NCBI RefSeq assembly: GCF_008087625.1
Contig: NZ_CP042997.1
Location: 3,224,001-3,288,000, forward strand
Origin: Aquisphaera giovannonii
GTDB lineage: Bacteria; Planctomycetota; Planctomycetia; Isosphaerales; Isosphaeraceae
Reading direction: 5' to 3'
Length of the DNA stretch: 64,000 nt
How positions within the stretch are numbered: the first letter of the stretch is position 1; each line of letters starts with the position of its first letter. The translations under genes were made by a program, and so were the position numbers. The notes below the pieces were generated by a model that did not search any database, was not told where the DNA came from, and worked only from the letters and a program-made list of their open reading frames with translations. Shown piece by piece: positions 31,770-43,289 of the stretch.

Positions 31770-32178
31770 ACTCGTCGTCGCCGTCCGACCCTCACGCGCC
31801 CATCACGCCCGTCGGACCGCCGGGACTTGCCCGCGACCAGCATCGCCTTCGCTCGGGCAGCAGCGGGCCAGATGCTCCCCTTCGAGGGGCCTCCCGAACC
31901 TCCGCGTCTCCCGATGTCTGGAGGCTGGAGCGGTCCCTCGGGAGAGCCGAGGTGAATGATGCAGCCCGCGGGGCTTCAGTGTCTCGGCCCATCCGGAGGG
32001 ATGGCCGCGGGGCAAACGACCCGAATTGATACCTCGCGCCCTCCTCATCCGCCTTACAACGGCACGGCATGATCATCGTCCGGACACGGCCCGGGTCAAA
32101 AAATCGCCCTCGCCCATGCGATCGCTCCCGACCAAACGGTTTTGGCAGTCTCGATGGTACGCGACGATCCCGTCACTC
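31770..32178. other. Gene-free stretch upstream of the MarR-type regulator
   Basis: About 410 bases with only short open frames and no domain. The right half becomes less GC-rich toward the putative promoter at 32179. No repeat or RNA gene was seen. Confidence 0.35.
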
Positions 32179-32207
32179 TTGTCGAAAGATTCGTCGTCGA
32201 GTACCCT
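32179..32207 (+). promoter_or_regulatory. Candidate sigma-70-type promoter
   Basis: TTGTCG (32179-32184) and TACCCT (32202-32207) are separated by 17 bases in a locally AT-rich patch, 40 bases before the GTG start of the regulator gene. The -35 box matches the consensus at four of six positions. Prediction by eye only. Confidence 0.35.
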
Positions 32208-32246
32208 TTCTGTAGAGATCGAAATTCCCGTCGAGGCGAGTCAGCC

Positions 32247-32855
32247 GTGAATCTCACACCCGCCGCGCAGAAATTTGTGCTCCACTGGGGGGAGATGGGA
32301 CAGCCGTGGGGCATCAATCGCACCATGGCGCAGGTCCACGCGCTGCTGTTCGTTTCTCCGGCACCCCTGGACGCCGAGGAGATCAGCAAGCTGCTGGACG
32401 TCAGCCGTTCGAACGTGTCGACGAGCCTCCGCGAGTTGATCACCTGGGGCGTGGTCCGCCGGGTGCACATCATCGGGGATCGTCGGGACCGCTTCGAAGC
32501 CCTCAAGGACGTCATGGAGACCTTCCGCGTGATCATGGCGGAGCGCAAGCGTCGGGAGATGGATCCGACGATTGCCCTGCTGGAGCACTGCGTGAAGGAG
32601 GCCAAGGCCGGCGACGAGGCCGAGAAATACACGCGCGAGCAGCTCGAGAAGATGCTCGAGTTCGTGAAGATGGTCACGCAGTGGTACGGCTACATCGACA
32701 ACCTGTCCACCTCGGCGCTCCTGAGGCTCTTCCGCGGCGGCGCGATGATCGCCAAGCTCTTCGGCAAGGCGAAGCCACGACCGACGTCGGCGGGCGCCGA
32801 CGCGGGTATGGACGAGGACGAAGAGGTCGCCGAGCCGAGCCTGGAGACGAGCTGA
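32247..32855 (+). CDS. GbsR/MarR-type winged-helix transcriptional regulator
   Basis: A 202-residue DNA-binding protein. The winged helix-turn-helix lies in the first third: VHALLFVSPAPLDAEEISKL, LDVSRSNVSTSLRELITWGV, VRRVHIIGDRRDRFEALKD, with the recognition helix SRSNVSTSLREL typical of GbsR. The C-terminal half is helical (HCVKEAKAGDEAEKYTREQL) and a final acidic tail follows. I prefer the GTG at 32247 (GAGGCGAG about 9 bases upstream) because a promoter-like element lies between it and the upstream in-frame ATG at 32142. GbsR proteins usually control osmolyte genes; no such gene is adjacent, so the target is unknown. Confidence 0.85.
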   Translation: MNLTPAAQKFVLHWGEMGQPWGINRTMAQVHALLFVSPAPLDAEEISKLLDVSRSNVSTSLRELITWGVVRRVHIIGDRRDRFEALKDVMETFRVIMAERKRREMDPTIALLEHCVKEAKAGDEAEKYTREQLEKMLEFVKMVTQWYGYIDNLSTSALLRLFRGGAMIAKLFGKAKPRPTSAGADAGMDEDEEVAEPSLETS

Positions 32856-32875: not shown

Positions 32876-34522
32876 TCAGAAAGGCGGCTCGCCCTTGGAC
32901 GCGGCGGGCTGGCCGGCCGGGGGAGGGGCCGGCCTCGCGGGCGGCGGCGGGAACCCCGGGGCGGGCGAGCTCGCCGGGGCCGCGGGAGCGGCGGGCTCGC
33001 CGGGGGGCGGGGGTGACGCGGGCGTCCGGGGGGTGTCCTTCCTGGCCGCCGGCCGCGCGGCCGCCGAGTCGGCTCGCTCGGCCTTCTTCCGCTCCAGGGC
33101 CTCGGTGTAGGACGTGAAGGCGTCGTCCGACAGGTAGCGGTCGATGAGGGCCTGGAGGTCGTTGAACCGGGCCTGCACGTTCTTCGTCAGGACGGCCGTC
33201 TTCGAGGCCGCCTCCTCCTTCGTCGCCTGATTCTTCAGGTCCTCCAGGCGCTTCGCGAAGACGTCCCTCCGCGGCAGGAGCGCGTACTCCTTGAGGCCCT
33301 GCTCGATGGCGTCGTAGTCCTCGCCCTGGAGCCTCGCCTCCAGCCTCTTCTCCAGGCGCGACCGGATCGCCACCAGGTCGATGACCTCGTCGCGCAGCGC
33401 CTCCAGCCGGACCTGGTAACCGACGGTGAGGGGCTTGGGGTCGAACGGGATGTCGCGCTCGTCCCCGCCCTCGCCGGGCATCATCGGGATCTCGACCATC
33501 GGCTCGGTGTTCGCCGCGAGGAGGCGGAGGATCACGAGCCCCGTCGCGAAATCCGCATCGAGCACAATGCGCCCGGAGCGATCGGTCATCCCGAGCTCCT
33601 GCGGGTGTCCGTCGGGGACGGCCCGCGCCGTGAGCGTGTATCCGGCGGCCGGCGACTGGTCGCCACGCGTGAGGAACCGGAGCCGGACGGGGCTCTTGCC
33701 CGGCTTGATCCCGATCGCGGCCAGGCTGTTGGGCCTCGAGACTCGCTGCGTGAGTGGGTCCCGGAGCGCGGAGACGATCGCGCAGCGGGCCACCGGACCG
33801 TCGACCTGCTCGACCTGGAGATAGGAGAAGGGGATCCTGCGGATCAGGACGGCGTTGTCCCGGGTCGTCACCAGCCGGAGGGGCAGGAAGACGGTGCCCT
33901 TCGACGCCACGCGGCCGAGCTCGCTCGCCGGCGCGACGGAGGCGCCGCGGACCAGGAGCAACGCCCGGCCTCCCTCCTGCCCGGTGATCAAAGCGGTCGG
34001 ATTGAACAGCTCGAGGGCGAATCGGAGCAGGGCCCGGGGGGCGTCGTCCGGCACGGACGCCCTCTGCTCCTGCACCGGGCCCAGCCGCCTCGTGCCGGTG
34101 TCATACTCCCGGCCGGTGAAGGCCAGCGCGGCGTCCCCCGACGCCGAGATCCGCACGAGCCAGATCTTGTCGAAGCCGGGGTCGAAGCCCGACAGCACCT
34201 CGCCGTCGAGCGCTTGGAGATTTCCGCCGGCCAGCGGGCTGGCCTTCGGGGCGACGGTGACGGCCCATGGGGGGCCCACGAACCTGCGAACCAGCGCCTG
34301 CCATTCGCGGACGATCCGCGAGAGGGATGCCCGGTCCAGCCGGGCCGAGGGGTCGACGGCGAGGTGCAATTCGATGCGGTACGGGAGCCGATCGATCGGC
34401 TCGCCGGGCCTCGCCGCGGCCGCGACTTCGGGGGCGGGCAACTCCGCCGCGGCGGAGACGCGGGCGAGGCCCGCCAGCAGGATTGCGGCCAGGGTTGCGC
34501 AACGGGGGACGGCCCGGCTCAT
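32876..34522 (-). CDS. Secreted protein with Pro/Ala-rich C-terminal tail, fifth gene of the FHA operon
   Basis: A 548-residue exported protein of unknown role. The signal peptide is MSRAVPRCATLAAILLAGLARVSAA (read in part), starting from the ATG at 34522. The middle is strand-rich (SYLQVEQVDGPVARCAIVSA, LRFLTRGDQSP). Residues about 375-470 are helical with a heptad pattern (IRSRLEKRLEARLQGEDYDA, VFAKRLEDLKNQATKEEAAS). The last ~75 residues are Pro, Ala and Gly with few others, as in wall- or surface-reaching tails. Its ATG overlaps the stop of the upstream gene as ATGA, so it is translationally coupled. It is the last gene of the minus-strand operon. Confidence 0.75.
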   Translation of the reverse strand: MSRAVPRCATLAAILLAGLARVSAAAELPAPEVAAAARPGEPIDRLPYRIELHLAVDPSARLDRASLSRIVREWQALVRRFVGPPWAVTVAPKASPLAGGNLQALDGEVLSGFDPGFDKIWLVRISASGDAALAFTGREYDTGTRRLGPVQEQRASVPDDAPRALLRFALELFNPTALITGQEGGRALLLVRGASVAPASELGRVASKGTVFLPLRLVTTRDNAVLIRRIPFSYLQVEQVDGPVARCAIVSALRDPLTQRVSRPNSLAAIGIKPGKSPVRLRFLTRGDQSPAAGYTLTARAVPDGHPQELGMTDRSGRIVLDADFATGLVILRLLAANTEPMVEIPMMPGEGGDERDIPFDPKPLTVGYQVRLEALRDEVIDLVAIRSRLEKRLEARLQGEDYDAIEQGLKEYALLPRRDVFAKRLEDLKNQATKEEAASKTAVLTKNVQARFNDLQALIDRYLSDDAFTSYTEALERKKAERADSAAARPAARKDTPRTPASPPPPGEPAAPAAPASSPAPGFPPPPARPAPPPAGQPAASKGEPPF

Positions 34523-37065
34523 GGCTTCCTCCAGGGGTCGCGTGCGAACCACGGCTCGATCTCCCACGTCGCCAGGCCTTGATAGAGCGATTCGGCGGCC
34601 TCGACCGGGCCCCTCAGCCGGGTCCGCCAGGCGTAGTGATCGGCGACCTGCCAGAGCGGGATCACGGGCAGCTCATCCCGCGACTCGCGGTCGATCTGGA
34701 TCGCCAGGCCGCGGGCCGTGGAGAGCTCGGTCGCGCGGTCGAGCTGGAGGAGGAGCTGGAGGATCCGCGGGCTCGCGGCCGACGAGAGGGCATCCGACTG
34801 GGGGGGGGCGTCGTAGCCCGGGCAGAGCATGAGCCCGGCCTCGAGGATCGGCTCTTCGCAGCGGAGGGCCCGATAGGCGAGGTCGAACCGCCGGCCCTGG
34901 CGCAGCTCGGACTCGAGCCTGGACTCGGGCACTTCCACCGGCTGGATCTTGATGCCGGTCAGCTCCAGCGACTCCACCAGCTTCGGCATCGCCGCACGGG
35001 CCTCGGCGATCGCGGGATACTCGAGCTTGAGCTCGATGCGAGCCGCCCCCAGCTCCTTGCGGGCGCCGGCCACCAGCATGATCGCCAGCGTCGCGTTGAA
35101 CTCGAGGGGCTTCACGCCCGGGGCGTTGGCGTACGAGCCTTTCGGGAACGGCCCGTCCGTCGCGTCGCTGGACTCGTCGACGGGCCGGCGGAGGACGGCG
35201 TCCTCGAGTATGCCCTTCCGCGGGATCGCATAGGAGAGGCCGCGACGCAAGGAACGATTGCGCAGGACCGGGTTGCGGGCGTCGATCGCGAGGACGTGCG
35301 AGCGGGGCTGGGCGTACTGCCCCACGCGGATCTCCGGGTTCGCCTTCAACGCCGCGACCTGGTCCGGCGGCACGTGGGCCGCGAGGGTGACGTCCCCCTC
35401 GAGGAGCGCCGCGACGACCGGCCGGTTGCGCGGCAGGCGCACCTCGTGGATCCGCATGACCCGCAGGCCGGCCGACGAGGCGGAGGCCGGGGCGGGCTCC
35501 GGCCGCGGGCCGGCCCGGGCCAGGTCCAGGGCGTCGGCCGAGGAGGCGGCGCAGCGGAACGGGCCGTCGGTCACGAGCAGTCGCTCCAGGCGGGTGGTGG
35601 CGACGCGTCCGTCGATCCCGGCGTGCGCCGGGCCGACGGGCCACTCGAACCACGACCCCGTCCTCACGAGCGGCCGCTTGAGCCGGATCTCCACCCTCGA
35701 CTCGTCCGCCGCCGCGACGCGGTCCAGGGCGTCGGCCCATCGGGCCTGATACTTGTTGGAGCTCGGGTCGGTCCGGTCGATCAGGCAGCGGGCCACGTCC
35801 GCGGCCGTCGCCTCGCGCGAGCCGTCGGACCACCTCGTGCCGGGCCGGACGCGCAGGACGAGCCTGCGGCCGAGATCCGCCGATTCCAGCGACTCGACGA
35901 GCTGGTCGGCGAGCTTCCCCTGCGCCGCCTCCTCGCTGTCGGCCGCGAGGATGGGCCGATAGAGCAGGCGGCTGACGCGGGCGTCGGCCGGGGACCGCAC
36001 CCATGGTCCGACGGGGTAGGGGACGTCGTTGACGGCCACGTCCAGGGTGGGGATCGCTTCGAAGGCCTTCGCGTAGAGGTCGGCCGCCCCCTCGAGCTCC
36101 GGCCACGTCCGCAGCGCATCGGCGAGGGCGTCCAGCCTCGCCGCCCCTTGCAGGGCCTCGGCCGCCCGGACCCGGTCGCGTGCGAGCGAGGCGAAGCGAT
36201 CTCGCATGGCCCGGACGCTCGGATGGTCGCCTGCCAGCTCCTCGGCCTCGTGGAGGTAGCGACGGCCCCTGGAGAACTGGCGGAGCTCGATCGCCCGACC
36301 GATCCATCCGCCGTAGGCGGAGGCGAGCTGGTCCATGAGGCCGGGATAGTTGCGATCCCTCGCCAGCAGCTCGCGGAGGAGCCGGAGGCCGCGTTCGCTG
36401 TCGCCGGCGACGAGCGCGGCCGTCCCCTCCGCGAGCAGCAGCTTGTTCACGTGCTCGTCCATGCCCGGCCAGGACGGGTTGCGCGTCTTCACGCGGAGCA
36501 GGCATTCGAACGCGCGGGCGAAGTCGCGGGCGAGGACCAGTCGGTCCGCCTCTTCCAGGAGCATGTCCTCGAAGTACTCGATGGAACGGATGTTCGACCG
36601 CTTCACCGTGTAGTCGCGGACCGCCACGTTGTCCAGGAGGTGGACCTTGACCACCTGGGTGGGGTCGTCCGCCGCGGGCGCCTCCTCCGCCTTCTTCCTG
36701 GGCGCGGTCTTGATCTTCGAGCGCTCGCCGGGAAGCGTGATGTTCCCCTCGTACTGGGCGGCCAGCTCCGCGTCGCTCGAGGCCGACGCATCCTTCTTCT
36801 TCGGGTCGACCGGCGGCAGGGGCCGCGGGCTGACCGGGTCGACGATGAAGACGGAGTTGTCGGAGAGCGTGATGCGGTCGAAGGGCACGGATCGGAGTAA
36901 CTGGGACGGGGCGGAGGCGGCCCCGGGCGGCTGACCTGCGGGCTCCTGGGCCCTGCCCGTCGCGGCGCCGTGACCGGCCCAAGCGAGGACGGCGAGGGTC
37001 GAGCCGGCCAGCGCCGTCAGGCGGATGGCCCCGCCGCGGGAGGAATTCCCTCGCCGACTCATCAT
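34519..37065 (-). CDS. Exported family-5 solute-binding-like protein with helical repeat N-terminus, fourth gene of the FHA operon
   Basis: An 848-residue protein with a signal peptide (LTALAGSTLAVLAWAGHG) after MMSRRGNSSRGG. Residues about 120-310 are helical and repeat-like (YFEDMLLEEADRLVLARDFA, LLREL, RNYPGLMDQLASAYGGWIGR), resembling TPR solenoid. From about 330 the chain matches peptide/nickel ABC-transporter binding proteins (SBP family 5): VRPGTRWSDGSREATAADVA, VLRNRSLRRGLSYAIPR, YPAIAEARAAMPKLVESLEL and DLAYRALRCEEP. No permease or ATPase is adjacent, so it is unlikely to serve a classical importer. It starts with ATGA overlap on the upstream gene. Confidence 0.8.
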   Translation of the reverse strand: MMSRRGNSSRGGAIRLTALAGSTLAVLAWAGHGAATGRAQEPAGQPPGAASAPSQLLRSVPFDRITLSDNSVFIVDPVSPRPLPPVDPKKKDASASSDAELAAQYEGNITLPGERSKIKTAPRKKAEEAPAADDPTQVVKVHLLDNVAVRDYTVKRSNIRSIEYFEDMLLEEADRLVLARDFARAFECLLRVKTRNPSWPGMDEHVNKLLLAEGTAALVAGDSERGLRLLRELLARDRNYPGLMDQLASAYGGWIGRAIELRQFSRGRRYLHEAEELAGDHPSVRAMRDRFASLARDRVRAAEALQGAARLDALADALRTWPELEGAADLYAKAFEAIPTLDVAVNDVPYPVGPWVRSPADARVSRLLYRPILAADSEEAAQGKLADQLVESLESADLGRRLVLRVRPGTRWSDGSREATAADVARCLIDRTDPSSNKYQARWADALDRVAAADESRVEIRLKRPLVRTGSWFEWPVGPAHAGIDGRVATTRLERLLVTDGPFRCAASSADALDLARAGPRPEPAPASASSAGLRVMRIHEVRLPRNRPVVAALLEGDVTLAAHVPPDQVAALKANPEIRVGQYAQPRSHVLAIDARNPVLRNRSLRRGLSYAIPRKGILEDAVLRRPVDESSDATDGPFPKGSYANAPGVKPLEFNATLAIMLVAGARKELGAARIELKLEYPAIAEARAAMPKLVESLELTGIKIQPVEVPESRLESELRQGRRFDLAYRALRCEEPILEAGLMLCPGYDAPPQSDALSSAASPRILQLLLQLDRATELSTARGLAIQIDRESRDELPVIPLWQVADHYAWRTRLRGPVEAAESLYQGLATWEIEPWFARDPWRKP

Positions 37066-40000
37066 GGCCTGCCTCCGGGCTGGGCATTCAGGTCGACCGG
37101 GCGGAGCGTGCCGCGGGCGACCGGGACCAGGGTACGGCCGCCGACCTGGAGCAGGCCGCCGGCCGGGAGGATGTCCAGTTCCATCCTCCGCCGAGGCGAG
37201 CCGTCGGCGAGGGAGCGTCCCTGGAGCGCCCCCGTCCTCTCCAGGAACCAGACGGTGTCGCCCTCGACGATGGGCTCGCCGATCGCGGGCGAATCGAGCT
37301 GCGCGGACCAGGCACGCCGGCCGTCGGCCAGCAGGGCGAGCACGCCCCCGGCGGCGTCGGCGACGAAGCAACGCCCCGCCACGATGACCGGGCGCCCCAC
37401 GAGCGGAGCGGCCAGCGGCCATGACCCGACGGGGCTCAGGTCGCGGATCGACAGGGCCCGGACCTTGGCGTCGGACGTGGCCACGATGGCCGCCCCCTCG
37501 GTCACGGCGGGGTCCGAGACGATCCCCCTGTCCAGCAGGCTCTCGGCCTCGACGACCAGGCGGGGGGCCGGCTCGGCCTTCAGGGCGAGTCGGCGGACCC
37601 GCCCGGTGTCGTCGGCGAGGATGGCCGTAGTGGCGTCGATGGGCGCGGGGGCCAGCCAGCGGCCGCGACGATCCCGGTCGTAGACCGGGACGAACGGCTC
37701 GGCCCTGGACTCGGCGGAGAGCGGGTCGATCAGGTAGACGCGACCGTCGGCCCCGGGGATCAGGAGGTTGCCCTCCCAGGCCAGCGGCGGGGACGCCAGC
37801 GACGAGGGCAGCTCCACCTTCCTCCAGGCCTCGATGCCTTGCCCACCCCCCGGCTCGTGGACCCAGACCGACGCGCCGCCCCCGTCCGGGGCGATCACGT
37901 CGATGCCGTCTCCTCGCCCGGCCACGGTCATCAGCCGGCCGGCGGGCAGGGCCTTCACGCCGGTCCCCGCGATCGGCAGGACTTCGAAGCCGCCGGCGGT
38001 GAGGCGCTGCAGGGGGAGGACATCCACGCCGCCGGCCTCGCCGACGGTCTTCAGCCCGTCCCCTTTCGCGGTCCGGGAGAGCGGCGTGGGCCAGCCGGCC
38101 CCCAGGATCGTCCGCCAGCCGATCGATCCTTCCTTCGCGTCCACCCCGCAGAGCAGGCTGCCGCCCGTCGCCGGGTCCCGGGTCGTGAAGACGACCCGAC
38201 GACGGCCGTCGATGGCCTGCAACGGGGCGATCGGCGGGCCGAGCGGCCCGAGGAGGAACCGTGCGGCGATCTTCCCGCGCTCCGCGTCGAGGTCGTACCG
38301 GCCGCTGCGGGCGCCGCCGAGCCAGAGCTCCCGCTCGGAGAGCGCCAGGCCGAACGCCGGGCCCGCGGAATCGGCGTCCGGATTGGTCCTGGCCAGCGAC
38401 CGGAGCGGGGAGTCGCTCGAGTAGTCGCCCAGCGCGAAGGCCTCGACCGCACCCCGGTCCCCCGTGGCCCAGAGGACCGAGCCGGCAGTCGCCGGCGTCG
38501 CCCATTGCCATCCCGCCACGTCGAGGCGCTGGGCCGGCCGGAGCTTCGCCCCCTCGTCCTCGAGGAGCATCACCCGCCAGGTGCTCTCGGCCGGGCGGTC
38601 GTCCTCGGCGACGACCAGGTAGCGGCCGACCCGGACCGGCGTGCATGCGATCGAGCCCTCGTCGTGCCCGAGGTACTCCACGCCCAGGCAGGCGAGCGGC
38701 TCGCGCGACAGGGTGAACAGGCAATCCCTGCGGGCCAGCAGATAGAGGAATCGCCCCTGCTCGTCGCTCACCGGGGCCTTCGCCAGGGGCAGCCCGAGGT
38801 TCAGGGTGCCCAGGACCTCCCCTTGCCGGAGCGAGACGGCCAGCAGCTTGCCGCCCGGGAGGGCCTGGAAGAGGTCGTTGCCGAGGACCAGCGGCGGGGA
38901 CTCGATCGGCTCGCCGAGCGGCAGCCGCCAAATCAGCTTGCCCGTCGCGGCCTCCAGCTTGAGGAGCTCATCGTGCCGGGCGTCGGCCACCAGGACCGAG
39001 GAGTCGCCGGCCACGGCCGTCGGCGGGAACGGGGCGGACAGCCCGACGGGCCGCTGCCAGACCGGCGCCCCGCTGCTCGAGTCCAGCGCGTAGGCGATGC
39101 CGTCCGCCAGGCCGTAGGCGAGCGTGTCCGCGGCCACCGGGCCCGCCGGCGCGGCCGAGGATCGGAGCACCAGGGTCGTGGCCGGTCCGAGGCCCTCCCG
39201 GCGATCATCGGTCGCGGCCGGGCGGCGGGACGCGTCCAGCCGGACGGCCTTCTTCACCAGCTCGTTCGCGCCGCTCATGTGCCGGACCAGCTCCGCATCG
39301 CGCGACAGGTCCGCGTACTTCGACACGAGTGCATCCCTGGCCGCGTACACCCCGGGGGCGGACCCCGCCTGGAGGGCCCGGTCCATCGCGGCCAGCGACT
39401 CCGCGCGGGCCTGGGACTTGCGGACCGCCGCCCGTGCCTCGTCGAGGAGGTCGGGCAGGCGGGACTTCTTCAGGAACGCGGCGGCGGATTCGCCGGCGAT
39501 CTGGGCGTGGAGCGTCACGGCCGTCTCGGCCTCGCGGAGCGAGTTCTCGTCCGCCGACCGTCGCGCACGGTCCGCCAGGCCCTCGCCGATCCTGATCACG
39601 AGATCGGCGAGCTCCGCCCTGCTGTCCCGGAAGGCCGGCTCGTCCCCGACGCCCGAGAGCATCTCCCCGGCCGCCTCCAGCGCCGTGCTCCAGGTGGCGC
39701 CGGAGACCGTGATGTACTGGCGGACGTTGGCAAGGGCCCGCAAGACCCTCGCCTGGCCGGCCCGACGGTCCTCCGGGTACGCGGCGAGGAAGGCGTCGAA
39801 GTCCCGCATCGCGGAGCGGAAGTCCCCGTCCTCCATCTCCTCGAACGCGTGGTTGTAGGAGGACTCGGTCTGGGACTTGACGATGATCGCTCGCAGGCCG
39901 ATCCCCATTCCGACCAGCGCGAGGAGGGCGACGACGAGCCCGATCACGAGCGGCGAGGAGACCAATCTCTCCCGCCCCGGCGCCTCGGCGCGGCGGTCGC

Positions 40001-40592
40001 GGAGTGCCCGGAACCACGCCCCCAGTCGACCCTCGGACGCGTCGGCCTTCGCGCCCGGGCCGACCTCGGCCAGCCCAGCCCGGGGGGGACCCTCGAGCTC
40101 CAGCTCGTCGAGCCAGGCGGGGCTCTCGAGCTTCGCGGGACGGGTCAGCACGCGCGTCTTCTCGTCGCCGTCTTCCCGGCCTCTCCCGCCCCGGACCTCG
40201 TCCCGCGCCGAGGGCTGCGCGGCGGGTCGGTCGAGCACGCGGGTCGCCTCCTCCGCGCCGCGTCTCGAAGCGCGACGGCCGGGCCGGCGTCCCAGGTCCT
40301 CGTCGATGCGGAACATGTAGATCCGGCACGGGCCGACGCCGACCTCATCCCCCTGGTGCAGGCTCGAGGAGGACATCTTCGTGCCGTTCACCTCGACGTA
40401 CTGCGCGTCCGGCGAGGCCTCGATCCGGAACCGGTGCTTCTTCCAGAGGATCCGGCCATGCACGGGGCGCACGCCCTCGCCGGAGAGGACGACGTCGCAG
40501 GCCGCACTCGTCCCGAAGAGGGCCGGATGGTCGCGCGACAGCTCCACGAACTGGACGCGGCCCTGATCGTCGTGGACTTCGAGGGTGGCCAT
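37062..40592 (-). CDS. FHA-TM-TPR-beta-propeller protein, third gene of the operon
   Basis: A 1176-residue membrane protein. Residues 1-95 form an FHA-like domain (GTSAACDVVLSGEG, VRPVHGRILW, VEVNGTKM, GDEVGVG); the conserved Ser of SxxH is replaced (VRPVH). Residues 96-212 are a basic/acidic linker with two near-identical acidic-TRVL motifs, EEATRVLDRPAA at 114-125 and DEKTRVLTRPAK at 143-154, candidate phospho-Thr sites for FHA binding. A TM helix spans 214-237 (LVIGLVVALLALVGMGIGL). Next comes a TPR-like helical region (HAFEEMEDGDFRSAMRDFDA) and from about 450 a PQQ-type beta-propeller (GLADGIAYALDSSSGAPVWQ). The FHA therefore faces the cytoplasm and the propeller the periplasm. It reads phosphorylation inside and probably binds partners outside. 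Confidence 0.82.
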   Translation of the reverse strand: MATLEVHDDQGRVQFVELSRDHPALFGTSAACDVVLSGEGVRPVHGRILWKKHRFRIEASPDAQYVEVNGTKMSSSSLHQGDEVGVGPCRIYMFRIDEDLGRRPGRRASRRGAEEATRVLDRPAAQPSARDEVRGGRGREDGDEKTRVLTRPAKLESPAWLDELELEGPPRAGLAEVGPGAKADASEGRLGAWFRALRDRRAEAPGRERLVSSPLVIGLVVALLALVGMGIGLRAIIVKSQTESSYNHAFEEMEDGDFRSAMRDFDAFLAAYPEDRRAGQARVLRALANVRQYITVSGATWSTALEAAGEMLSGVGDEPAFRDSRAELADLVIRIGEGLADRARRSADENSLREAETAVTLHAQIAGESAAAFLKKSRLPDLLDEARAAVRKSQARAESLAAMDRALQAGSAPGVYAARDALVSKYADLSRDAELVRHMSGANELVKKAVRLDASRRPAATDDRREGLGPATTLVLRSSAAPAGPVAADTLAYGLADGIAYALDSSSGAPVWQRPVGLSAPFPPTAVAGDSSVLVADARHDELLKLEAATGKLIWRLPLGEPIESPPLVLGNDLFQALPGGKLLAVSLRQGEVLGTLNLGLPLAKAPVSDEQGRFLYLLARRDCLFTLSREPLACLGVEYLGHDEGSIACTPVRVGRYLVVAEDDRPAESTWRVMLLEDEGAKLRPAQRLDVAGWQWATPATAGSVLWATGDRGAVEAFALGDYSSDSPLRSLARTNPDADSAGPAFGLALSERELWLGGARSGRYDLDAERGKIAARFLLGPLGPPIAPLQAIDGRRRVVFTTRDPATGGSLLCGVDAKEGSIGWRTILGAGWPTPLSRTAKGDGLKTVGEAGGVDVLPLQRLTAGGFEVLPIAGTGVKALPAGRLMTVAGRGDGIDVIAPDGGGASVWVHEPGGGQGIEAWRKVELPSSLASPPLAWEGNLLIPGADGRVYLIDPLSAESRAEPFVPVYDRDRRGRWLAPAPIDATTAILADDTGRVRRLALKAEPAPRLVVEAESLLDRGIVSDPAVTEGAAIVATSDAKVRALSIRDLSPVGSWPLAAPLVGRPVIVAGRCFVADAAGGVLALLADGRRAWSAQLDSPAIGEPIVEGDTVWFLERTGALQGRSLADGSPRRRMELDILPAGGLLQVGGRTLVPVARGTLRPVDLNAQPGGRP

Positions 40593-40662
40593 GCGGAGGG
40601 TTCGGCTCCAGGGCGGTTTCGTCGAAGGATGGGACGGCGCGGGGGCATGACCGGGGTGCCGG

Positions 40663-41634
40663 TCAGCGGAGGGTCTCCTGCGCGATGACCTGGAAGCCGT
40701 AGGTGTCCCCCCTGGGGACGACGCTGAATCGGGTCACGCGGATCTCGCCCGGCTGCCGCCCCCGATAGCGGACCTCGAGCTGGGCGAGCTGATCTTCCAC
40801 GCCCTTGGGGTAGAACTGGAGCACGACCCCCTCGCCGACGTCGATGCCCGCCTTCTTCAGGAGGGCGATGTCCGAGGCCTTCCGCCCGAGGCCCTGCCAG
40901 AGGAAGTAGAGTCGGCCGTCGCTGCGGCCGGAGCCGTATCGCTTGGTCGGCTGCGGGTTGGAGAAGTCGGAGACGTAGATGAGCTGGTCCGGGCCCGCGA
41001 CCACGGCGAGCTCGACCTTCAGGGCGTCGAGCTGGCGCGCGTACTCCTCGGCCGTCTGGCCGGGGTTGTAGACGATGCTCCAGCGCTGCTCGCGGGAGAC
41101 CCCGCCGTCTCCGGGGCCGTAGCCGAGCCCCGGGCCGCCGGAGCCGATCTTGCTGGCCCGCTTCCCCGTGGCCACCGCCCCGCCGCTGGGCATCACCGCG
41201 CCGAGGTCCACCTCCGCCATCCCGGAGCCGGCCTCCGCGACCGCGTCGAGCATCGCGCCGGGCGTCGCCTGCACCGAGGGCTCCTCGAAGTCGCCGGCCT
41301 CCTCCTCGTTGTTCGAGGCGAACGGGGCGGCGTCGGCGCCCGGCACGTCGATCTTCTCCGTCGAGCCTGGCGTCCCCTCCGGGCTGCCCCCGCCGCCGCC
41401 GGATACCTCGATGATCTCCACCGGCGACGTCACGCGCGACGCGTACGCCTGGTTCGCGATGTAGACGATCCCGAGCAGGCCGACGACCATGGCCGCGCCG
41501 GCGATCACCGCCATCAGGAAGGACGTCACCTGGTCGTACAGCGATTCCCCGAGGACCATCGGGGAGGCGGCGGGCTCGCCGCCCTTCGCCCCGGCCTTGA
41601 CGCCGGGGGCCGGGCCGGTGGTCGTGGTCGTCAT
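40663..41634 (-). CDS. Single-TM protein of unknown function, second gene of the FHA operon
   Basis: A 323-residue protein. An N-terminal cytoplasmic stretch (TTTTTGPAPGVKAGAKGG) is followed by a TM helix at about 38-65 (TSFLMAVIAGAAMVVGLLGI), then a Gly/Ser-rich linker and an exposed globular part containing VGEGVVLQFYPKGVEDQLAQ and IRVTRFSVVPRGDTYGFQVI. I recognise no family. Its ATG overlaps the stop of the toroid gene as ATGA, and the FHA gene begins 71 bases after its stop. Confidence 0.75.
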   Translation of the reverse strand: MTTTTTGPAPGVKAGAKGGEPAASPMVLGESLYDQVTSFLMAVIAGAAMVVGLLGIVYIANQAYASRVTSPVEIIEVSGGGGGSPEGTPGSTEKIDVPGADAAPFASNNEEEAGDFEEPSVQATPGAMLDAVAEAGSGMAEVDLGAVMPSGGAVATGKRASKIGSGGPGLGYGPGDGGVSREQRWSIVYNPGQTAEEYARQLDALKVELAVVAGPDQLIYVSDFSNPQPTKRYGSGRSDGRLYFLWQGLGRKASDIALLKKAGIDVGEGVVLQFYPKGVEDQLAQLEVRYRGRQPGEIRVTRFSVVPRGDTYGFQVIAQETLR

Positions 41635-43289
41635 GGCGAGGGGCTCCGTGCCGACTGGGTCGGCGTCGCCGACCCCCGGGCCGGCGGCCTGCGGATGTCG
41701 TCCTCGTCCGGAGTGCCGCCGAGGGGGCGGGTCGCGTCATACCAGGCCTGCCAGGCCTGCGCCGCCTGCGTGCGCTGCTCGGGCGTGGACGGGCTCGGGG
41801 GCCCCGCCCCGTCGATCTTCCGGCTGAGGAGCTGGAGGCCCAGGCGGGACGCGGCGACGACGTCCTCGTCCGGGTCCGTGATGGCCCCGATCAGGTCGGG
41901 GACCACGTCCATGTCGCCGGTGCGGGAGAGGGCCCAGGCGGCGACCTGGCGGAGCCCGGGGTCGCGATCCTTCATCATCTTCCGGAGCCGGTCCTTGTGC
42001 GGCTTCAGCACGTCGGGCCCCTCCCGATGGTAGCGCTCGATGAGCCCCGCCACGGCGGAGTCGCCGTCCTTCGTCCGCGGGTCCTCCAGCACCCGGATCA
42101 TCTCGTCCACCGCGCCGTTCATCGGGCGGGACATGATCTTGCCGCCGGCCACGGTCATGGAGGTCAGGTCCTTCGGGAGGTACCGCCCCCCCACGAGCGT
42201 CCCGGCGCCCAGCTTCTTGTTGATGACGCGGCGGATCGACTTGGCGGTCGACTTGGTCAGGTAGAGGATCGCCCAGGCCGAATTCATCTCGTCCGGCTGC
42301 GGGGACGCCTTCCAGGCTCCGTTGGGCTGCTGGCTCGACCGGATGAACGCCCGCCCCTTCTCCAGGATGTCCGCCTTTCCCATGGACTGGCGGTCCGCGA
42401 AGGCCGAGACCCGCTCGAGCCCGTAGAGGGCGTAGTAGATCGACTGGCCGATGAGGGTGGGGTTGGTGGTCGTGTAGTTGGCCGCCAGCCACGCCATGCC
42501 CTTCTTCGCCGCCTGGTCCATCTGGGCCAGGGGCGTGGTGATCTGATAGGCCTGGCCGCCCGGATCGGTGGAGATGACGGTCAGGAGCGGGCTATCCCCG
42601 CGCCGCGATTGCCGGTAAAGCTCGAGCTGCCGCTTGCAGAGCAGCAGGCTGCCCACGCCGGCGGCGGTCATGGACATGTTGTCCTGATATTCGGCCTGGT
42701 CGCGGTGGTAGTTCCAGCTCCCGGCCGAGCCCTGGACGCTGAGATACCAGGCCGCCGCCCTGTCCCACACCGAGGGGGGGACGTCGAACCCGGCGTTCTC
42801 GCATTCCCAGAGCCCCAGCAGGGCATACTGGCTGATCGAGGCGTCGCCTTGCTGCCGGTGGGTGTAGTCCCAGGATCCATTCGCGTTCTGACGGCCGATG
42901 AGGAAGGTCGCGACGAGGTTGATCTCCCCCTTGTGCTCGTCCCCGTCCAGGTTCGAGAGCACCATCGCCACGACGGCCGCCTCGTAGATGTCCTGGCCGC
43001 CGTGTCGTTGCGGCTCGTACGCGCTGCCGGTGAATCGCTTGCGGATCTTGGCGAGGCAGTCGGCGAGGACGGGGTCGGACTTGGGCACGTCCGCCTTGAT
43101 CATCGCCAGTGCGATCATCGCCGACTCGCCCACCTGGCCCTGGGTCGCGGCGGCCCCGCGCAGGTACTGGACCCCGGCCATGACCGCCTGCTCCTGCTGG
43201 CCGCGCGCGGGGGCGGTCCCGAGGGCCATGAGGAGCAGGGCCAGGCACGGCGGTAGGACGAAGGGCAGCGGCCGTTGCGAGTGCGACAT
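41631..43289 (-). CDS. Secreted QW-repeat alpha-toroid (prenyltransferase/squalene-oxidase repeat) with C-terminal HEAT repeats, first gene of the operon
   Basis: A 552-residue exported protein. Signal peptide: LPFVLPPCLALLLMALGTAP after MSHSQRP. The next ~350 residues are alpha-alpha toroid repeats with three QW-type motifs: QNANGSW, QGSAGSW and QQPNGAW, and partner helices such as SISQYALLGLWEC and MTAAGVGSLLLCK. No DxDD proton donor is present, so it is not a squalene-hopene cyclase but a scaffold-type member. From about 430 HEAT-like helices follow (DPGLRQVAAWALSRTGD, DEDVVAASRLGLQLL). The ATG at 43289 is used; an upstream TTG at 43301 is possible. It opens the operon. Confidence 0.82.
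   Translation of the reverse strand: MSHSQRPLPFVLPPCLALLLMALGTAPARGQQEQAVMAGVQYLRGAAATQGQVGESAMIALAMIKADVPKSDPVLADCLAKIRKRFTGSAYEPQRHGGQDIYEAAVVAMVLSNLDGDEHKGEINLVATFLIGRQNANGSWDYTHRQQGDASISQYALLGLWECENAGFDVPPSVWDRAAAWYLSVQGSAGSWNYHRDQAEYQDNMSMTAAGVGSLLLCKRQLELYRQSRRGDSPLLTVISTDPGGQAYQITTPLAQMDQAAKKGMAWLAANYTTTNPTLIGQSIYYALYGLERVSAFADRQSMGKADILEKGRAFIRSSQQPNGAWKASPQPDEMNSAWAILYLTKSTAKSIRRVINKKLGAGTLVGGRYLPKDLTSMTVAGGKIMSRPMNGAVDEMIRVLEDPRTKDGDSAVAGLIERYHREGPDVLKPHKDRLRKMMKDRDPGLRQVAAWALSRTGDMDVVPDLIGAITDPDEDVVAASRLGLQLLSRKIDGAGPPSPSTPEQRTQAAQAWQAWYDATRPLGGTPDEDDIRRPPARGSATPTQSARSPSP

Follow-up and report, generated by a model that had tools for sequence, protein, structure and literature searches.

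Five minus-strand genes of Aquisphaera giovannonii (order Isosphaerales; genome of 10.5 Mb in 3 contigs) are so tightly coupled that an earlier note, made from the letters of the locus alone, took their products for one machine spanning the inner membrane with no named counterpart. If these genes do encode one machine, of what kind is it, what drives it, and does any described system resemble it? We followed this up starting from the 64,000-nucleotide stretch of DNA that contains the genes (the window), and we consider it probable from sequence that they encode the transducer and the periplasmic parts of an envelope-spanning machine specific to Planctomycetia and driven by the proton motive force, which a three-gene motor cassette completes.

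Layout and conservation of the five-gene unit

All five open reading frames are present on the minus strand of the window, with the following starts, stops and intervals:

41631-43289, minus strand: gene A, 552 aa with a Sec signal, a secreted alpha-toroid (repeats of the squalene-cyclase/prenyltransferase type) that has HEAT repeats at its C-terminus
40663-41634, minus strand: gene B, the proposed force transducer, made up of a tail in the cytoplasm, a TM helix (32-65), a disordered linker (70-175) and a C-terminal alpha/beta domain at about 180-323
40593-40662, minus strand: the B-C junction of 70 bases, where families outside the Isosphaerales that have the full operon carry exbB-exbD1-exbD2
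37062-40592, minus strand: gene C, with an FHA-like cytoplasmic domain, a TM helix at about 211-234 (by sequence), a TPR-like segment and a PQQ/BamB-like propeller; 1176 aa
34519-37065, minus strand: gene D, secreted, with a helical-repeat N-terminal part and an SBP_bac_5 substrate-binding fold; 848 aa
32876-34522, minus strand: gene E, the final gene of the operon, secreted, with a Pro/Ala-rich C-terminal tail; 548 aa

The three ATGA overlaps claimed for the operon are borne out (A/B at 41631-41634, C/D at 37062-37065, D/E at 34519-34522), and the remaining junction, between B and C, is indeed short but measures 70 and not 71 bases. On the plus strand a MarR-like regulator (window 32142-32855) faces the end of the operon, a position that is kept in several Isosphaerales loci.

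The domains first read from the translations are largely recovered by Pfam, which assigns HEAT_2 (1.1e-8) to A, FHA (4.1e-6) and the PQQ/BamB-like propeller (1.9e-23) to C, and SBP_bac_5 (1.1e-24) to D behind its helical stretch, while the cyclase repeats of A (squalene-hopene-cyclase type) and the TPR of C give weak matches. Protein E matches no Pfam family, and an NCBIfam search of the five products added nothing above cut-off. The N-termini of A, D and E are of the Sec type and, in the window proteins, without a lipobox; a lipoprotein origin for any of them was rejected, as the matches in relatives are scattered and several fall in truncated sequences.

That the genes form a unit had been deduced from their coupling alone. 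Comparison of 20 loci of 20 kb each, 13 of them from Isosphaerales genomes and 7 from other families, shows that the order A-B-C-D-E, on one strand, is kept in 20/20 loci wherever the genes are found, an arrangement far beyond chance. The 4-base (-4, ATGA) overlap of A and B recurs in most Isosphaerales loci. The genes are thus an old unit, with their order preserved across the Isosphaerales, and the scattering in close relatives that would have spoken against this did not occur for A-E.

Among 45 Isosphaerales genomes C is found in 44 and B in 42, the latter in single copy (once in two pieces, on a broken contig) and adjoining C where contigs allow. Across Planctomycetia, B is present in 242/298 genomes, or 217/262 of the good ones, many of the surveyed genomes being drafts. 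An even sample of the phylum yielded B in 16/246 genomes, namely the window genome and 15 others, all of class Planctomycetia, and in 0/230 sampled genomes from other classes; a profile of the C-terminal domain of B found the same 16 genomes, and a single-protein scan of named organisms returned seven loci, all from close relatives. An orthologue of A is the first operon gene in most lineages, and in four f2 loci (L079, L080, L082, L083) A was not found beside B. In family f88 (nine loci, L114-L122) nothing of the operon but a divergent C-terminal domain of B was detected, and in 2/9 of these loci an Exb cassette lies beside B in divergent orientation. B is duplicated in some lineages: a second B stands in tandem with the operon copy in L127 (G382), and another lies beside a divergent exbB-exbD-exbD cassette in L131 (G358, f97).

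We found no description of this operon in the literature, and neither the essential-gene study of P. limnophila nor that of the T. immobilis proteome mentions ExbB, ExbD or FHA proteins in its main text.

A motor cassette within the operon or apart from it

In five loci of other families (L079, L081, L083, L084 and L085) the B-C interval holds genes of the ExbB/TolQ and ExbD/TolR types, and ExbB/ExbD profiles place exbB, exbD1 and exbD2 between B and C in f2, f3, f4, f94 and f97. The full operon in other families is an eight-gene A-B-exbB-exbD1-exbD2-C-D-E. Its cassette encodes a proton channel of the ExbB/TolQ type and two subunits of the ExbD/TolR type, of which ExbD2 carries a zinc ribbon at its N-terminus. 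The cassette is absent from the B-C junction in all Isosphaerales loci examined. PF01618 matches six times in the window genome. Four of these matches were retrieved, and one of them belongs to a complete cassette far from the operon:

C1:5,439,024-5,439,821, minus strand: split ExbB, 2.2 Mb from the operon (Pfam MotA_ExbB, 6.5e-21)
C1:5,438,527-5,438,964 and C1:5,437,075-5,438,490, minus strand: the two split ExbDs (Pfam ExbD, 1.7e-15 and 2.2e-15)

The split ExbB scores 159 bits against operon-type ExbB by blastp, and the sampled paralogues reach ~72 bits at best. The maximum-likelihood tree (midpoint root, with 15 Isosphaerales paralogues picked from five genomes) likewise joins split and operon ExbBs in one group (99/98) and places these paralogues in another (99/93). 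The TM Asp of ExbD and the channel Thr/Gly positions of ExbB are kept. The split itself is a direct observation and is not confined to the window genome, as 15 more Isosphaerales genomes also carry the three-gene cassette away from the operon, and operon-type ExbB occurs once, at >258 bits, in 39/45 genomes of the order. Most likely, the 70-base B-C junction is the place that the motor genes left; that they were never inserted there is less likely. Beside the split cassette of the window genome (L090:7194-8030, C1 ~5.44 Mb), and in 11/15 compared loci, lies a divergent gene combining response-regulator and HATPase_c_2 domains, which we judged unrelated.

That the products make up a single inner-membrane-spanning machine, as proposed, is therefore well supported, the unit being class-wide and the operon of other families including an ExbB-ExbD-ExbD motor; the motor had escaped the first reading because its genes lie outside the window.

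Since the Isosphaerales motor is unlinked, its functional coupling to the operon in that order rests on orthology and on weak co-loss data. In two genomes, G002 and G012, B, D and operon-type ExbB were all not found, and as both are drafts this co-loss of B and ExbB is suggestive only. G002, which is of the same genus as the window genome, has a short C-like fragment (L134:10334-10753), perhaps all that is left of an operon since lost. Could A-E and the ExbBD cassette then be neighbours by descent only, the cassette serving another transducer while A-E form a passive envelope scaffold? The separation of the cassette in Isosphaerales, where neither part has been lost, would fit such an arrangement. 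However, the cassette accompanies B in f2, f3, f4, f94 and f97, it adjoins B in two f88 loci and the second B of f97 (L131), and no TonB_C transducer that it could serve is detectable in the Isosphaerales, so that we regard descent alone as very unlikely.

The candidate transducer and the cytoplasmic control modules

AlphaFold2 predicts for B a TM helix (32-65), then disorder over residues 70-175, and at the C-terminus an alpha/beta domain modelled with confidence. TonB and TolA are built in the same way, with a flexible linker between the TM helix and the terminal domain. As the long disordered linker made a fold search with the full-length model uninformative, the C-terminal domain was modelled alone (44 sequences; pLDDT 88, pTM 0.82). 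No confident fold relative of this domain model was found in the PDB (best Foldseek E 0.07, VIA-align Z <3), and TonB, TolA and vWA chains are absent from its match lists. The sequence of B likewise has no Pfam or PDB match, TonB and vWA included, and no member of a 35-sequence B alignment matches TonB.

Near the cytoplasmic end of the TM helix of B, Asp34 and Ser38 are nearly invariant; the helix contains no His, and the SHLS/His motif, the motor-docking element of TonB/TolA and vWA transducers (Williams-Jones et al. 2025, PMC12204202), is absent. TonB_C (PF03544) was detected in 0/45 Isosphaerales genomes, with positive controls in E. coli, Caulobacter and Bacteroides, and the ExbBD motors of this order thus seem to use other transducers. 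From its modelled architecture B is likely the force transducer of the machine, and we infer that it would serve the Isosphaerales ExbBD motors.

On the cytoplasmic side, the earlier note had proposed that the machine is read out by phosphorylation. FHA domains usually bind phosphothreonine through the arginine of a GR motif and the serine of an SxxH motif. In the window C the sequence is FGT where GR is expected (Thr for Arg) and RPVH where SxxH is expected (Arg for Ser), and other FHA-type orthologues have GT, GS or similar at the first place and no Ser at the second. The domain itself is also exchanged: in f3, f4 and f94 the FHA is replaced by a helical domain that, by our reading of the sequences, resembles domains preceding planctomycete kinases, and in one orthologue (L130:12109-16599; G358, f97) by a Ser/Thr kinase (Pkinase 9.3e-50, with HRD and DMG motifs present). 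The missing residues and the domain swaps together make phosphothreonine reading by the window C doubtful, and the claim of a phosphorylation readout is weak and, for this protein, finds no support. Instead, the occurrence of an FHA-like, helical or kinase domain according to family points to a cytoplasmic end that is a changeable control module, and the fusion of a kinase to the TPR/PQQ propeller in L130 is a possible direct link of kinase signalling to the machine.

The N-terminus of ExbD2 varies similarly, being a CxxC...CxxC zinc ribbon in other families and a different domain in Isosphaerales. GYF_2 is the best or second-best Pfam match of two Isosphaerales ExbD2 N-termini; we rejected this identity, as the matches are below cut-off (E 0.007 and 0.11, in 2/3 fragments) and the full proteins give none.

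Relation to known systems and the proposed machine

Proton-driven 5:2 motors are the main route by which energy reaches the outer membrane. With an ExbB and two ExbDs in its operon or in a separate cassette, the machine described here is most likely of the proton-driven, envelope-spanning kind to which Ton, Tol and Agl-Glt belong. The statement that no described system has this set of genes is accordingly right for the set but not for the general kind, which is already known.

The closest described layout is the Agl-Glt core of Myxococcus xanthus, AglRQS with GltC-E and GltG (PMC3169522). Like our cassette it has one TolQ-like and two TolR-like subunits, it includes an FHA-TM envelope protein and exported TPR proteins, and its motor genes may sit in a cluster separate from the envelope genes. 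However, GltG joins FHA, TM and a TonB C-domain, whereas C combines FHA and TM with the TPR/PQQ propeller, has no TonB match and leaves the transducer role to a separate protein, the proposed transducer B; neither a toroid, an SBP nor a PQQ propeller is among the listed Glt proteins (PMC3169522). This comparison was made at the level of Pfam domains.

A role in surface motility, or in moving surface components as the Agl-Glt core does, would draw on the matching motor gene set, FHA-TM protein and cytoplasmic regulatory domains, and also on the GYF_2 matches of the two ExbD2 N-termini, below cut-off as they are. Against it stand the lack of a GltG-like TonB_C and of any Pfam-detectable outer-membrane barrel, and the propeller, SBP and toroid proteins, which have no place in the Glt list. 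Gliding is not known across class Planctomycetia, and we judge a motility role quite unlikely.

The Ton system shares with the present one a proton-driven ExbB/ExbD motor, here within the operon (other families) or split from it (window genome), and a TonB-like succession of TM helix, flexible linker and C-terminal domain in B. It differs in that there are two different ExbDs here, that the C-terminal domain of B is not TonB_C by Pfam and that no TonB-dependent receptor is found among the five window products. As Ton is the best-known use of ExbBD, and as D has an SBP_bac_5 fold whose closest solved relatives are agrocinopine and other family-5 binding proteins, the machine might instead be one of energised uptake, in which D would capture a solute or peptide and dock with the help of A, C and E, and ExbBD would act through B to open an outer-membrane gate encoded elsewhere. 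Yet Pfam identifies neither a permease nor a TonB-dependent receptor or porin among the five window products, and TonB_C was detected in no Isosphaerales genome. D is moreover divergent, at ~22-32% identity between families outside the closest Isosphaerales, and carries the extra helical part. Unlike in an SBP-dependent ABC importer, D has no permease or ATPase gene in its operon, either among the five genes or between operon genes in the relatives read. We therefore consider uptake unlikely.

Tol-Pal resembles the machine in its TolQ/TolR-type motor, its TM-linker-domain protein and its periplasmic propeller, but TolB and OmpA/Pal matches are absent among the five products, and the propeller here is a TM-anchored one of PQQ type. 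The vWA force transducers of PVC bacteria are encoded next to tolQ and a pair of tolR genes (Williams-Jones et al. 2025, PMC12204202) and share with B the TM helix, flexible linker and terminal domain; B differs in lacking the SHLS/His motif, no vWA match was seen for it in Pfam or in the fold lists, and its neighbours are the toroid, the FHA-propeller protein, the SBP and E in place of the one TPR gene of vWA systems. The machine thus lacks at least one tested defining feature of each of Ton, Tol-Pal, Agl-Glt and the vWA group, and the absence of a named counterpart holds for the gene set and for proteins B and E.

The simplest reading of the gene content is that force passes from the motor through B to a periplasmic assembly. 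In such a machine proton flow through ExbB/ExbD1/ExbD2 would move or rotate the ExbD axle, and B would be held to this motor by its single TM helix; the flexible linker of B would carry the force, and its C-terminal domain would pull a partner on the outer-membrane side. The soluble, exported proteins A, D and E, together with the periplasmic TPR-propeller of C, would form the load or a docking assembly. Inside, control could be exerted through the TM helix and variable cytoplasmic domain of C (FHA-like, helical or Ser/Thr kinase) and through the zinc ribbon or GYF-like domain that ExbD2 has in the cytoplasm. While the gene content, synteny, domain assignments and predicted architecture of B come directly from our data, it is by inference that we couple B to this motor, let it transmit force and assign the load. 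Apart from the unlinked motor of the Isosphaerales, points that tell against this reading are the missing docking motif of B, the lack of an outer-membrane barrel or receptor gene in the operon, the four f2 loci without A beside B, and the f88 loci, in which B in divergent form is the one operon gene detected.

Our first guess for the role of the machine is maintenance of the outer membrane or envelope, since its genes occur widely in the class, mostly as single copies, and are not accompanied by a receptor gene. A bolder version, which we hold to be rather unlikely, is that a class-specific machine, its transducer domain having no relation to TonB, TolA or vWA, replaced Tol-Pal in Planctomycetia and pulls on the outer membrane during FtsZ-less division under a kinase- or FHA-like cytoplasmic switch.

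For the Isosphaerales the motor and the envelope parts have been separated in the genome and both kept, and the operon read alone hides the engine. The proposed force-carrying part, B, matches no named protein family. How Planctomycetia deliver energy to the outer membrane without a TonB_C transducer, of which none is detectable in the Isosphaerales, is a question that this widespread, mostly single-copy eight-gene set, with its unnamed transducer, makes directly testable in planctomycetes amenable to genetics.
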